Part shown: positions 15,800 to 21,303 of the stretch, piece after piece | Layout of the letters: every line of letters starts with the position of its first letter | How positions within the stretch are numbered: the first letter of the stretch is position 1 | Made by a program: the position numbers and the translations under genes | The notes under the pieces: generated by a model | Databases searched by the model: none | What the model was told of the DNA's origin: nothing | What the model saw: only the letters and a program-made list of their open reading frames with translations | Virus record (IMG/VR): IMGVR_UViG_3300022602_000478 | Span: 1 to 21,607 of that record | Origin: a virus | Direction: 5' to 3' (one strand) | Length of the DNA: 21,607 bases

Positions 15800-15875
15800 T
15801 GGTGAGACGTGCGGGGGTCGAACCCACGACCAACAGATTAAAAGTCTGCTGCTCTACCAACTGAGCTAACGTCCC
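15800..15875 (-). tRNA. tRNA-Lys (UUU), CCA encoded
   Basis: A complete 76-base cloverleaf on the minus strand. The acceptor stem is GGGACGT / ACGTCTC with discriminator A and an encoded CCA end; the D arm is GCTC-AGTTGGTA-GAGC. The anticodon arm is GCAGA-CTTTTAA-TCTGT (anticodon UUU, genome positions 15840-15842), and the T arm is GTGGG-TTCGACC-CCCGC. The sequence is very close to the proteobacterial tRNA-Lys as I remember it, especially the D arm and anticodon loop. It should read AAA/AAG lysine codons, which are common in this genome. It sits between two protein genes in the same direction and is probably cut from their transcript. Confidence 0.95.
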
Positions 15876-17298: not shown

Positions 17299-18111
17299 CT
17301 AAACGTCCTGAGACACTGATTGCTTTGGGAGTGGATTACCCCCTGCCTCTGCGATAGCTGCCTTTACCTTTAATTTGTCAACTGTCGTAAAACCGTCAAC
17401 CACAAGCTCATTTGCAACCTTCAAAGAATCTACCTTTTTCTCTTTGTCGGCATCACTAATCTTAGTAGATGACATGATTCTGCTAACCATGTTGCCGTAG
17501 GCTGCAATCCAGTCTTCCACGGAGTGGTAGCTAGAATGTGGTTCGTCTAGGTTGGGTACGTAGAGTTTGAACGCACCGTCCTCGACAACCTCTGTCACAA
17601 CTTCTTGAGCCATTCCCATATCTTTGACTTTTGGAGGGTCAAAGTCTTGAACTTCCTCAACCGCATAGTGACCTAAGATGCAAGCTGGATAAACAGACCT
17701 TACAGCTCTACTAACAACCCTAGAACGGAGCATATCTTCAGGATATTTTGTCCATCCAGAATTATCTTTGTAAAGACCCGCTAATTTAGCCATTTCAATA
17801 GTCCACTCAACCTTCAAAGAACCTCCTTGAGGGTGAGAGAACGTGCCAGAGCACTTTGTAGGAGATATTTCGTGCCAGTCAACCTTTCCTCCTGCCAACT
17901 GGAAACGAGCAAGCATAGCCTGTGATTTAAGAGCTGGTCTTCCCATAATAATGTCGTACTCTTGAACGACTGTTGCGGGATGTTTTCCTTCTGCCTGTGC
18001 AACAAGCATAACGGCTAACATTTGGTCTTTGTTTTTAAATCCGTAAAAGTTTGATTTCACCATAGCGTCAGCCATGACGTTCATATCAGATACTGCTACT
18101 AAGTTACTCAT
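17299..18111 (-). CDS. recT: RecT-family single-strand annealing protein
   Basis: A 270-residue protein with the pattern of phage RecT proteins: MSNLVAVSDMNVMADAMVKS at the start, then NKDQMLAVMLVAQAEGKHPA, EYDIIMGRPALKSQAMLARF, GGKVDWHEISPTKCSGTFSH and WTKYPEDMLRSRVVSRAVRS. VYPACILGHYAVEEVQDFDP follows. RecT anneals complementary single strands during recombination-dependent replication and repair. The partner exonuclease (YqaJ type) is encoded two genes upstream, a standard pairing. GGGAG lies seven bases before the ATG, and the start overlaps the previous gene by eight bases. The C-terminal 90 residues are charged and diverged. Confidence 0.82.
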   Translation of the reverse strand: MSNLVAVSDMNVMADAMVKSNFYGFKNKDQMLAVMLVAQAEGKHPATVVQEYDIIMGRPALKSQAMLARFQLAGGKVDWHEISPTKCSGTFSHPQGGSLKVEWTIEMAKLAGLYKDNSGWTKYPEDMLRSRVVSRAVRSVYPACILGHYAVEEVQDFDPPKVKDMGMAQEVVTEVVEDGAFKLYVPNLDEPHSSYHSVEDWIAAYGNMVSRIMSSTKISDADKEKKVDSLKVANELVVDGFTTVDKLKVKAAIAEAGGNPLPKQSVSQDV

Positions 18112-18313
18112 CTTTATTCTCCCTTGCTTTAATCATTGCGTCAGCTTGCTTATAAGCACGTTTCGCAAACAATTCCTCACTTAAATCAATACTATCCACA
18201 GAAACTAATGCTTCCATAGCCAACCCTGCAAACCAGTCTCTGAGTTCCATGCCTTCGTGTTCCACAATTAACCCTGTGGTAGGGTGTTTGTACATGATTG
18301 GATATGCTTTCAT
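18104..18313 (-). CDS. Small phage protein between YqaJ and RecT
   Basis: A 69-residue protein: MKAYPIMYKHPTTGLIVEHE, then GMELRDWFAGLAMEALVSVD and LSEELFAKRAYKQADAMIKA. The GM-x-L-R-D-(W/Y)-F-A-x-x-A-M-x-x-L ... A-Y-x-x-A-D-A-M-(I/L)-K-A-R pattern recurs in many small phage proteins that I recognise by sight but for which I know no established function. It overlaps both neighbours (ATGA with YqaJ, eight bases with RecT), so it is made with the recombination pair and may assist it. Confidence 0.65.
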   Translation of the reverse strand: MKAYPIMYKHPTTGLIVEHEGMELRDWFAGLAMEALVSVDSIDLSEELFAKRAYKQADAMIKARENKDE

Positions 18314-19209
18314 TTCAGTAAAAACCTCCTAGAACCTGGTACTTCCCTGATAAACGACTTGTAGACATCAGGCATAGATTGCTCAAATAGCTTGGCATCA
18401 AACTTATTGCTTGCTTTCGCTGCCTTCCAAGTTGCCAACACTTTTCCGTCTATGGTCTGCAAACTGGATGCTGTCTCCATAAACCCAGCTATCAGGGTCT
18501 GTAACTGCTCCTCACGACCCTCTAAGAGCTTAATTTCCTCTTTGATGCTACGTAGGGCTTGGCAAGCCTCCTCAACGCTCCTAGAAGCCATCCTGACGCT
18601 TTCTGGATTGTCTTTAGGGTAAAGCAGCTTGACTTGCTCCAAGTCTTCAGGCGGGAGGGTAGTACCCGTCTGTACGTGTGCCCAAATAGTTGCCATCTTT
18701 TGGATTAACTCATCCTTCTGAGTGTCTGAGATGTCAAAGGGGAACATAACGAACTCTTGACCACCGAATAGGACGGCCAGGTAGATACGGGTATTTCCGA
18801 ATACTGCGGTTTCGTGGACTAACTGAGCAAAATCAGCGTCAGGAATGGTATTAGAAATATCGTCAAACTTATTACGCACACCAGCGTTATAGTTTTTACA
18901 CTCGACCAGAATTGTTTGTCCATCTTTAGTCCCTGCAAAATCAAAATGTGATTTAAACCATGATTCCTTTTTGTGAGTCAGGCTTTCCTCTATCTTGTTA
19001 AGCTCTATACCCAGTTTTGCCTGTGCAAGCCTACCGATTACGGGTTCCATGACGTGTCCCATCTGGACTGCCTCTATGCCTGACAAGTCTGGTATGTCCA
19101 TCTTGCCCTGCTTGGTCAAAATAACCTCATTAGCTTTGCCCATAGCTACTCTACGGGAGTCACCTGACCAGATAGCAGAATTACGTGTTTGTGGTGTGAA
19201 ATCAGACAT
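18310..19209 (-). CDS. YqaJ-type viral recombinase exonuclease
   Basis: A 299-residue protein of the YqaJ / lambda-exonuclease class. From the ATG at 19209 (GGAGG seven bases upstream) it reads MSDFTPQTRNSAIWSGDSRR. Motifs: GIEAVQMGHVMEPVIGRLAQ (E55), SWFKSHFDFAGTKDGQTILV with D90, then VECKNYN (E103-x-K105, the PD-(D/E)XK pair) and ADFAQLVHETAVFG (Q129). A C-terminal helical extension includes IKEEIKLLEGREEQLQTLIA. The enzyme would resect duplex ends to leave 3' single strands that RecT anneals. An in-frame start at 19236 lies inside the previous gene and is unlikely. Confidence 0.82.
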   Translation of the reverse strand: MSDFTPQTRNSAIWSGDSRRVAMGKANEVILTKQGKMDIPDLSGIEAVQMGHVMEPVIGRLAQAKLGIELNKIEESLTHKKESWFKSHFDFAGTKDGQTILVECKNYNAGVRNKFDDISNTIPDADFAQLVHETAVFGNTRIYLAVLFGGQEFVMFPFDISDTQKDELIQKMATIWAHVQTGTTLPPEDLEQVKLLYPKDNPESVRMASRSVEEACQALRSIKEEIKLLEGREEQLQTLIAGFMETASSLQTIDGKVLATWKAAKASNKFDAKLFEQSMPDVYKSFIREVPGSRRFLLK

Positions 19210-19414
19210 GGTTAGCCTCCTCAAAATAAATGGCACTCATTTGGCATCTTTCGGGTACTGTACTGTTCCGTTCTATAGAGCAGTAGGGTAGTTCGTCTAA
19301 GGGTGTTGGAGAGCCGTCTACGGGGCTTAAAACACGTCCACGGGTACATTTAGCAAATGTATTGCGTGAATCTACAGGGACTTCAAAATACTTACAGTCG
19401 ATACAGAGTTTCAT
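19202..19414 (-). CDS. Small Cys-rich protein, first gene of the recombination operon
   Basis: A 70-residue protein starting MKLCIDCKYFEVPVDSRNTF, then AKCTRGRVLSPVDGSPTPLD and ELPYCSIERNSTVPERCQMS. Five cysteines (C4, C7, C23 and two later) in a C-x-x-C ... C ... C ... C order suggest zinc binding. The ATG at 19414 is preferred over the one at 19423: AAAGG lies nine bases from the former but directly against the latter. Similar M-K-L-C-x-D-C-K-(Y/H)-F proteins are common in phages; their function is not known to me. It follows the operator/promoter at 19447-19478 and overlaps the YqaJ gene by eight bases. Confidence 0.68.
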   Translation of the reverse strand: MKLCIDCKYFEVPVDSRNTFAKCTRGRVLSPVDGSPTPLDELPYCSIERNSTVPERCQMSAIYFEEANHV

Positions 19415-20686: not shown

Positions 20687-20920
20687 TTATCTTTCAGTTA
20701 GGATTTTTTTAATATGCTCATGCTCATCTTGCGATAAGTCCTCATACCTCTTAAACACATTGACGCACATAGTGCATAAGGGGTAATCTTTTTTATCATG
20801 GGTCACTTTATATTTTTTTTTATTAAGTCCTCCAGTGGTGTACATACTGCAATAAGAATCTATACCAGTCCAAATATGAGCCTTATTCTTACCACACGTA
20901 TTACGTATTAAATACATCAT
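20687..20920 (-). CDS. Early Cys-containing small protein after the structured leader
   Basis: A 77-residue protein from the ATG at 20920: MMYLIRNTCGKNKAHIWTGI, then DSYCSMYTTGGLNKKKYKVT and DYPLCTMCVNVFKRYEDLSQ. GAGG six bases upstream supports ATG 20920; a TTG at 20932 in the same frame has no site. Four cysteines (TCG, YC, LCTMC) and a histidine suggest a zinc site. It is the first gene after the gene-free leader (20940-21270) and may be controlled by it. No known family. Confidence 0.6.
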   Translation of the reverse strand: MMYLIRNTCGKNKAHIWTGIDSYCSMYTTGGLNKKKYKVTHDKKDYPLCTMCVNVFKRYEDLSQDEHEHIKKILTER

Positions 20921-20939: not shown

Positions 20940-21164
20940 TTTCTATATATAGTCTTACTACTCTGCCAACGGTGGACGTACCTAGCCTCCTAGGTTACGC
21001 CTTCAACTATGCCTTACGGAGCCACAGCACCCGCCAGTCTTGCGCTCATGGGGCACTAGCTTCGCCACCCCTAGGACTCTCTCAGAGCTTACCCACAGTA
21101 GTCCATTTCCCTTACCCCTGCCGTATGGTGACCGAACGGGTAAGCGGTAATCGTAAAGCACAAT
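20940..21164 (-). ncRNA. Gene-free structured leader / candidate RNA
   Basis: No credible gene lies here on either strand, and the text is clearly more GC-rich than the genes around it. Inverted repeats are dense. GCTTACCC (21087-21094) pairs perfectly with GGGTAAGC (21138-21145). The same GGGTAAG can instead pair with CTTACCC at 21111-21117. ACCTAG / CTAGGT (20980-20985, 20990-20995) extends by CGT/ACG with one bulge into a 9-bp hairpin with a CCTC loop. CTG...CAG and GGTG/CACC around it suggest a multibranched fold. It lies between an early promoter and the first early gene of the run, so it is probably a cis-acting leader RNA or a processed small RNA. No known RNA family was recognised. 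Confidence 0.45.
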
Positions 21165-21239
21165 AAAAAAAGCCACTTACTACTGCATCCTGGTAGTAGT
21201 CCCTCGGTATATCGGGGCAGGACGCATGAGTAAATGGCT
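21165..21239 (-). terminator. Complex intrinsic terminator / attenuator
   Basis: On the minus strand AGCCATTTACT (21229-21239) pairs with AGTAAGTGGCT (21171-21181) in an 11-bp stem (one G-T pair), followed by seven T's. Inside, GCGTCCTG (21218-21225) pairs with CAGGATGC (21185-21192). ACTACT/AGTAGT at 21179-21200 offers an alternative hairpin. It would stop a transcript from the promoter at 21274-21303 after about 100 bases unless overridden. Confidence 0.6.
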
Positions 21240-21247
21240 TCTAACAT

Positions 21248-21267
21248 TGTTGACTACTACGACAACA
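21248..21267 (-). promoter_or_regulatory. 5' hairpin with loop complementary to the terminator core
   Basis: TGTTG / CAACA (21263-21267, 21248-21252) forms a stem at the very start of the predicted transcript. The loop and its edge carry GTAGTAGTC (21252-21260), which is the perfect 9-base complement of GACTACTAC (21193-21201) inside the terminator structure, so a pseudoknot or switch is possible. Confidence 0.5.
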
Positions 21268-21273
21268 GGGCAA

Positions 21274-21303
21274 ATCATACCACAATTTTATTTATTGGGG
21301 CAA
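21274..21303 (-). promoter_or_regulatory. Leftward sigma70-like early promoter
   Basis: TTGCCC (21298-21303), 18-base spacer, TATGAT (21274-21279) on the minus strand: four of six and five of six matches to the consensus. Predicted start about 21267, just before the structured leader. It would drive the early genes to the left. Confidence 0.55.

Follow-up and report, generated by a model that had tools for sequence, protein, structure and literature searches.

The window analysed here, meaning the whole stretch of DNA that was studied, is a 21.6-kb virus record (21,607 nt) with a gene-free, structured interval ahead of a small gene, all parts of which lie on the minus strand. A sequence-only reading had described this area as a structured leader; it is better delimited as 21303-20971, comprising a promoter, a small pseudoknotted RNA that we call RNA1, a spacer and a second RNA that we call RNA2. 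The following features are referred to below:

21274..21303, minus strand: sigma70-type promoter assigned to RNA1, with TTGCCC (21303-21298), 18 nt and an extended TG-TATGAT (21279-21274), 9/12 matches
21165..21267, minus strand: RNA1, ~103 nt, with P1, P2, P3, the pseudoknot and U7 (Model R1, 92.6 bits, with the window itself in the training set of the model)
21248..21267, minus strand: P1 hairpin, TGTTG / CAACA (95% of cells paired in 56 sequences)
21252..21260, minus strand: 5' strand of the pseudoknot, the P1 loop GTAGTAGTC
21193..21201, minus strand: 3' strand of the pseudoknot, GACTACTAC, within P2 and 3' of P3
21165..21241, minus strand: P2, the stem of the intrinsic terminator (arms ~21241-21218 and 21190-21168), enclosing the P3 hairpin
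21171-21165, minus strand: U7 tract closing the P2 terminator
21147..21164, minus strand: post-terminator spacer, ~18 nt, offering the 5' arm and loop of P1 an alternative pairing (P0)
21029..21146, minus strand: part of RNA2 covered by RF02932 (Betaproteobacteria-1 RNA; Rfam model match)
20971..21028, minus strand: RNA2 3' extension beyond RF02932, to GTCCACC (conserved columns; 96% identity with L012)
20687..20920, minus strand: first gene after RNA2, ~77 aa (open reading frame)

No PHROG match and no Pfam match over the cut-off was found for the product of this first gene. The operon downstream of RNA1-RNA2 includes genes for a RecT-like annealing protein and a RecE-like exonuclease (17299-19236), and a tRNA-Lys (TTT) lies within the early operon at 15800-15875 on the minus strand.

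The perfect complementarity between GTAGTAGTC (21260-21252) and GACTACTAC (21201-21193) that the sequence-only reading had spotted inside the terminator is exact, though the final base of each 9-mer also closes P1 or P3, so that ~8 pairs are free for the pseudoknot in the window. The multi-stem terminator with its U7 tract is equally well supported, with an RNA fold of -43.9 kcal/mol (z -6.5) that was equalled by 0/200 shuffles. For the interval behind it, said to be GC-rich, free of open reading frames and dense in repeats, the first two properties largely hold: GC content is 59% across the RF02932 match, and the only open reading frames are small (no more than 96 aa), unconserved and without Pfam match. 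No conserved protein gene runs across the interval, in which relatives differ by indels. The repeat density is weak, as we found a single 9-nt direct repeat besides the stem arms.

RNA1 is confirmed as a phage RNA family that had not been catalogued before, is widespread and changes quickly; it is present in more than 119 viral contigs that were retrieved with a pattern built from the terminator arms alone, leaving the pseudoknot out. Membership in a known Rfam family is ruled out, given that RNA1 of the window reached the gathering score of no family in Rfam 15 (best chance match fstAT, 21.9 bits versus 72) and that scans of 14 further loci against Rfam returned nothing over RNA1 either. Every one of 47 RNA1 clusters carries a correctly placed complement of 7-15 nt to its own loop, with at least 25 different loop 7-mers among them, and the score cut-off is reached by 96% of clusters with their own partners compared to 7.6% with swapped and 3.9% with shuffled ones. 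In an alignment of 56 sequences, P2 is paired in 99.8% of cells, changes on both sides are seen in 7/7 pseudoknot pairs, 3/4 P1 pairs and 8 P2 pairs, and the covariation score is matched by no shuffle, while slid registers all collapse. The same can be seen in close relatives: the sequences of L114 and L116 differ at two positions over 300 nt, which together form one pseudoknot pair (A-U to U-A), and the RNA1 sequences of L098 and L106, counted from P1 onward, are set apart by exactly two compensatory pairs, with only scattered differences in the upstream and RNA2 flanks. Swaps, shuffles and covariation thus rule out chance complementarity of loop and partner, in line with the expectation of the sequence-only reading that the match exceeds coincidence and that relatives should show compensatory changes. 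In the phage genome MW202484.1, which was found by blastn, the P1 stem is kept with the loop GTAACGGT and its partner ACCGTTAC.

The invariance of TTACTCATGC and GCAGTAGTAAG in alignment A2 has a simpler explanation, because A2 was retrieved using fixed terminator letters and the search pattern thereby fixed these very positions. A role of conserved P2 sequence as an aptamer core is ruled out, since P2 differs in the RNA1-like leaders of phages with RF02932 or with the type A RNA2 described below.

The proposed sigma70-like promoter (TTGCCC-18-TATGAT with extended -10 box) is borne out beyond the window as well: matches of at least 9/12 are found in 73% of 52 distinct sequences upstream of RNA1 and in 7% of shuffles. 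Across these sequences the -10 box ends mostly 6-7 nt ahead of P1, and the predicted transcript start is therefore the first base of P1, at ~21267. From this promoter position, RNA1 appears to be transcribed from its own promoter starting at P1 base 1.

Each phage record carries one copy of RNA1, and a multi-copy leader element is ruled out, with second weak matches representing the same hairpin read backwards. All relatives of RNA1 are metagenomic contigs with the exception of MW202484.1, itself an uncultured spring-water genome. By blastn in cultured phages, MW202484.1 was the only match for RNA1 and Acidovorax phage AP1 the only one for RF02932. Both RNAs are missing from 73/74 genomes of the host family of the sole metagenome-assembled genome (MAG) that matched, which rules out a host gene.

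The sequence of RNA1 changes very fast between otherwise close relatives. Between the window and its close relative L012, identity amounts to 92% for the product of the neighbouring gene, 89% for the promoter and 96% for the RNA2 core but only to 52% for RNA1, which nevertheless keeps all structural parts. Loci L061 and L066 provide a second case of divergent RNA1 between near-identical flanks. RNA1 is either swapped as a cassette or under diversifying selection; with either cause, its exact sequence would be free and its self-complementarity would not. That the loop, its partner in the terminator and its partner behind the terminator change together and fast suggests selection for self-recognition and not for a fixed sequence.

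RNA2 of the window matches the full RF02932 model (positions 1-120) with 91.9 bits (gathering score 49.4, E 3e-16), and its minimum free energy is not unusual (z -0.4). The notion of a small, roughly 100-base phage RNA followed by another structured RNA, one of several options in the sequence-only reading, thus proved right in the shape of the RNA1 family and RF02932. Across 51 distinct RF02932 loci, conserved columns extend ~58 nt past the Rfam model, which covers, judging from this conservation, only the first 120 nt of ~176 conserved nt. The RF02932 core motif is found in 80 other viral contigs, and RF02932 is also present in Acidovorax phage AP1.

Nearly all loci have a gene-free stretch of ~200-450 nt after RNA1, which falls into several sequence types. 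Type A, or RNA2-A, is ~275 nt long, accounts for 39/61 distinct loci and usually begins 10-25 nt past the U tract; it has covarying helices and was found without Rfam match. That it could be RF02932 is ruled out by the lack of any match at E 0.1 in type-A loci. RNA2-A lies downstream of RNA1 in, for example, L084, L085, L092, L093, L094, L133 and L176; its conserved 3' end, ATCCACCCTTGGAGAACCTATG, holds the start codon of the next gene in some phages, and in L155 the middle 200 nt of RNA2-A are gone, with the first 50 and last 28 nt left. Type C, found in L088, L099, L158, L183 and L187, has two copies of GATAAACG and no sequence relationship to type A or type D. Type D is RF02932 and lies directly after RNA1 in the window and three further records (50 tested); in MAG G050, a fourth record with an RF02932 match, RF02932 and RNA1 are on different contigs.

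Looking from the side of RNA2, with RNA1 unused, a hairpin-pseudoknot-terminator element is found upstream of 14/14 distinct type-A RNAs (shuffles 6%), and an RNA1-like element upstream of 21/48 distinct RF02932 copies (shuffles 5.6%); these calls were automatic and a few may be wrong. RNA1 and RNA2 thus form a general tandem, with RNA1 almost always immediately ahead of an RNA2, and the pair looks like one two-part regulatory RNA device. Other copies of RF02932 mostly lie ~20 nt after a Toprim/primase-like gene, as in Acidovorax phage AP1, where RF02932 follows an annotated primase, and because RF02932 exists in this setting without RNA1, RNA2 is not dependent on RNA1. The T7-like podoviruses have the unit between the scaffold and capsid genes, with type A as RNA2 in some and RF02932 in relatives; since the two alternate at this one capsid locus, RNA2 types can replace each other behind RNA1. 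Elsewhere the unit is found beside terminase or replication genes, depending on the phage, so that its position at the head of early genes, as the sequence-only reading had it, does not generalize. The neighbour labels "Toprim", "HNH", "scaffold" and "capsid" come from reading the sequences and not from profile searches. Genes downstream of the unit are unrelated between lineages, and in some lineages a promoter-like sequence can be seen by eye after RNA2.

A few loci deviate from the common layout. In L109 a gene lies between RNA1 and RNA2, which resumes behind it, and in L167 a gene that reads like an HNH homing endonuclease directly follows RNA1; the RNA junction behind RNA1 may be a homing target at these two loci. 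In MW202484.1, the hypothetical protein UOF77725.1 (record positions 33533-33892) coincides with RNA1 and RNA2-A; its gene is probably spurious, with RNA in its place. L108 has a weak match to the int-alpA RNA RF02996 at 805-879, ~420 nt past RNA1 (31.4 bits, gathering score 35.8).

In addition to the partner within the terminator, a further potential partner of the RNA1 loop lies behind it: the spacer that separates the U tract from RNA2 shows complementarity to both the loop and the 5' arm of P1. In the RNA1 family, the loop pairs better with its own spacer than with swapped ones (KS p = 1.4e-9), with null results for windows 30-114 nt further on and for one upstream window. Among 31 independent elements from outside the discovery set, the first 14 nt of P1 prefer their own spacer (p = 5e-5), and the loop alone against the spacer is not significant in this diverged set (p 0.18). 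This pairing, P0, is thereby shown statistically as a property of the family, at the level of predicted base-pairing, and is weak in the window, where it is only average (rank 0.30). P0 is incompatible with P1 and the pseudoknot and compatible with P2.

Taken together, we somewhat favor a reading in which RNA1-RNA2 is a switch between terminated and read-through RNA that works like IsrK of prophages, with the structured RNA2 as the read-through product. Judging from the promoter position, transcription would begin at the first base of P1; P1 and the pseudoknot, as defined by covariation, would fold first and P2 next. Most polymerases would then halt at the U tract and release a compact RNA of ~103 nt with both ends sequestered, while a minority would read through into RNA2, which begins 10-30 nt further on. 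The U tract and RNA2 lie too close together to accommodate a promoter for RNA2, which should therefore arise by read-through of RNA1 or from an upstream operon. Once part of the read-through RNA, the 5' arm and loop of P1 could give up P1 and the pseudoknot and pair with the spacer to form P0, which would join RNA1 and RNA2 in one folded unit. The same complementarity of the spacer could also let terminated RNA1 act in trans on the read-through RNA. In either way, the RNA1 module would set the amount of RNA2 or the fold that RNA2 takes. What speaks against this reading is the weak P0 of the window, the presence of RF02932 copies that lack RNA1, the varying genes downstream and the ordinary minimum free energy of RNA2.

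For IsrK of the Salmonella prophage Gifsy-1, a short RNA formed by termination and a long one formed by read-through have been described; one segment forms pairs inside the short RNA or else with sequence past the terminator, and the short form acts in trans on its own read-through transcript (PMC4825925). The likeness to RNA1 lies in terminated and read-through isoforms and in alternative pairing across the terminator, with the isoforms predicted for RNA1 and its pairing statistical and weak in the window. The two differ in that read-through of IsrK yields an mRNA (orf45-anrP) and that of RNA1 would yield a structured RNA, and the sections consulted on IsrK describe no pseudoknot (PMC4825925). 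RNA1 is likened to IsrK by mode of working and not by homology.

Several other readings have to be weighed against this switch. The most serious of them, which we regard as possible but doubtful, views RNA1 as an independent RNA that acts in trans through a loop specific to itself, determining immunity or incompatibility like the P1/P7 C4 RNA, the P4 CI RNA or the loops of plasmid antisense RNAs, and RNA2 as a separate product of the locus. Its own promoter and strong terminator, its single copy per phage and a loop system that changes fast and wholesale between relatives would all fit such an RNA, but within RNA1 the loop is itself tied up in the pseudoknot, and RNA2-A is never found without RNA1, which points to a tie in cis to RNA2. 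The sequence-only reading had instead suggested an attenuator in which the pseudoknot chooses between termination and read-through into early genes, and promoter, terminator and pseudoknot are indeed in the right order for this, with genes after the read-through region. Yet the 3' strand of the pseudoknot lies within P2 and is compatible with it, so that neither structure excludes the other, and both are conserved together; no conserved anti-terminator was seen, P0 as the sole alternative pairing found leaves P2 intact, and the downstream genes are unrelated between lineages. Given this lack of competition and the differing downstream genes, we consider an attenuator unlikely.

Slightly harder still to sustain is the idea that the stretch acts as DNA, as a replication origin or a recombination or packaging site whose folds are those of single-stranded DNA. 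The stretch is indeed gene-free, present once per phage and often near replication, Toprim/primase or terminase genes, but a sigma70 promoter at fixed distance and a T tract on one strand only fit an RNA, and the GC-skew turn visible in the window lies at ~14 kb, where the coding strand switches, and not at RNA1-RNA2, with the contig ending 0.3 kb beyond the latter. The put-like cis antiterminator of the HK022 type that had also been proposed would fit a structured RNA at the extreme 5' end of a phage transcript. As RNA1 ends in its own terminator and U tract instead of preceding one, occurs once per phage and lies away from the early promoter in many phages, we deem this reading very improbable.

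Comparison with known RNAs sets RNA1-RNA2 apart in further respects. RNA2 of the window matches RF02932 over the whole model, but RNA1, the pseudoknot, the tandem arrangement and the extension are all outside the Rfam entry; the literature collection searched contained no paper on RF02932 or RNA1. P1/P7 C4 and P4 CI are small antisense immunity RNAs of phages that owe their specificity to short stretches pairing with the leader transcript of the same phage. Unlike these, RNA1 has its partners within and flanking an intrinsic terminator with a structured RNA after it, and it had no cmscan match. With HK022 put RNA it has in common a structured RNA at the transcript start and differs in architecture (by-eye comparison), single copy and built-in terminator. 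The Pistol ribozyme resembles RNA1 in a 5' hairpin whose loop pairs, as a pseudoknot, with an internal segment further downstream. RNA1 differs in having its pseudoknot strand on the 3' side of the inner hairpin and in lacking a conserved core beyond the pairing pattern, and no cmscan match was obtained.

RNA1 thus represents a new family of phage RNAs, one that stands outside Rfam 15, is nearly missing from the records of cultured phages and has a pseudoknot supported by unusually clear evidence. Together, RNA1-RNA2 accounts for the annotated "hypothetical protein" of MW202484.1, which is probably RNA, and the orphan Rfam family RF02932 gains a partner, fuller boundaries and a testable context. 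As a tentative idea, a self-recognizing, pseudoknotted terminator RNA might set phage-specific immunity or dosage for one of several interchangeable large structured RNAs, RF02932 among them, in a two-part and rapidly diversifying system. If this immunity or dosage reading is true, RNA1-RNA2 would, to the best of our knowledge, be the first two-RNA specificity module of this kind and RF02932 would gain a function, and if self-specific pairing is the point, RNA1-RNA2 would provide a simple model, built on two RNAs, of the diversification of RNA-based control in phages.
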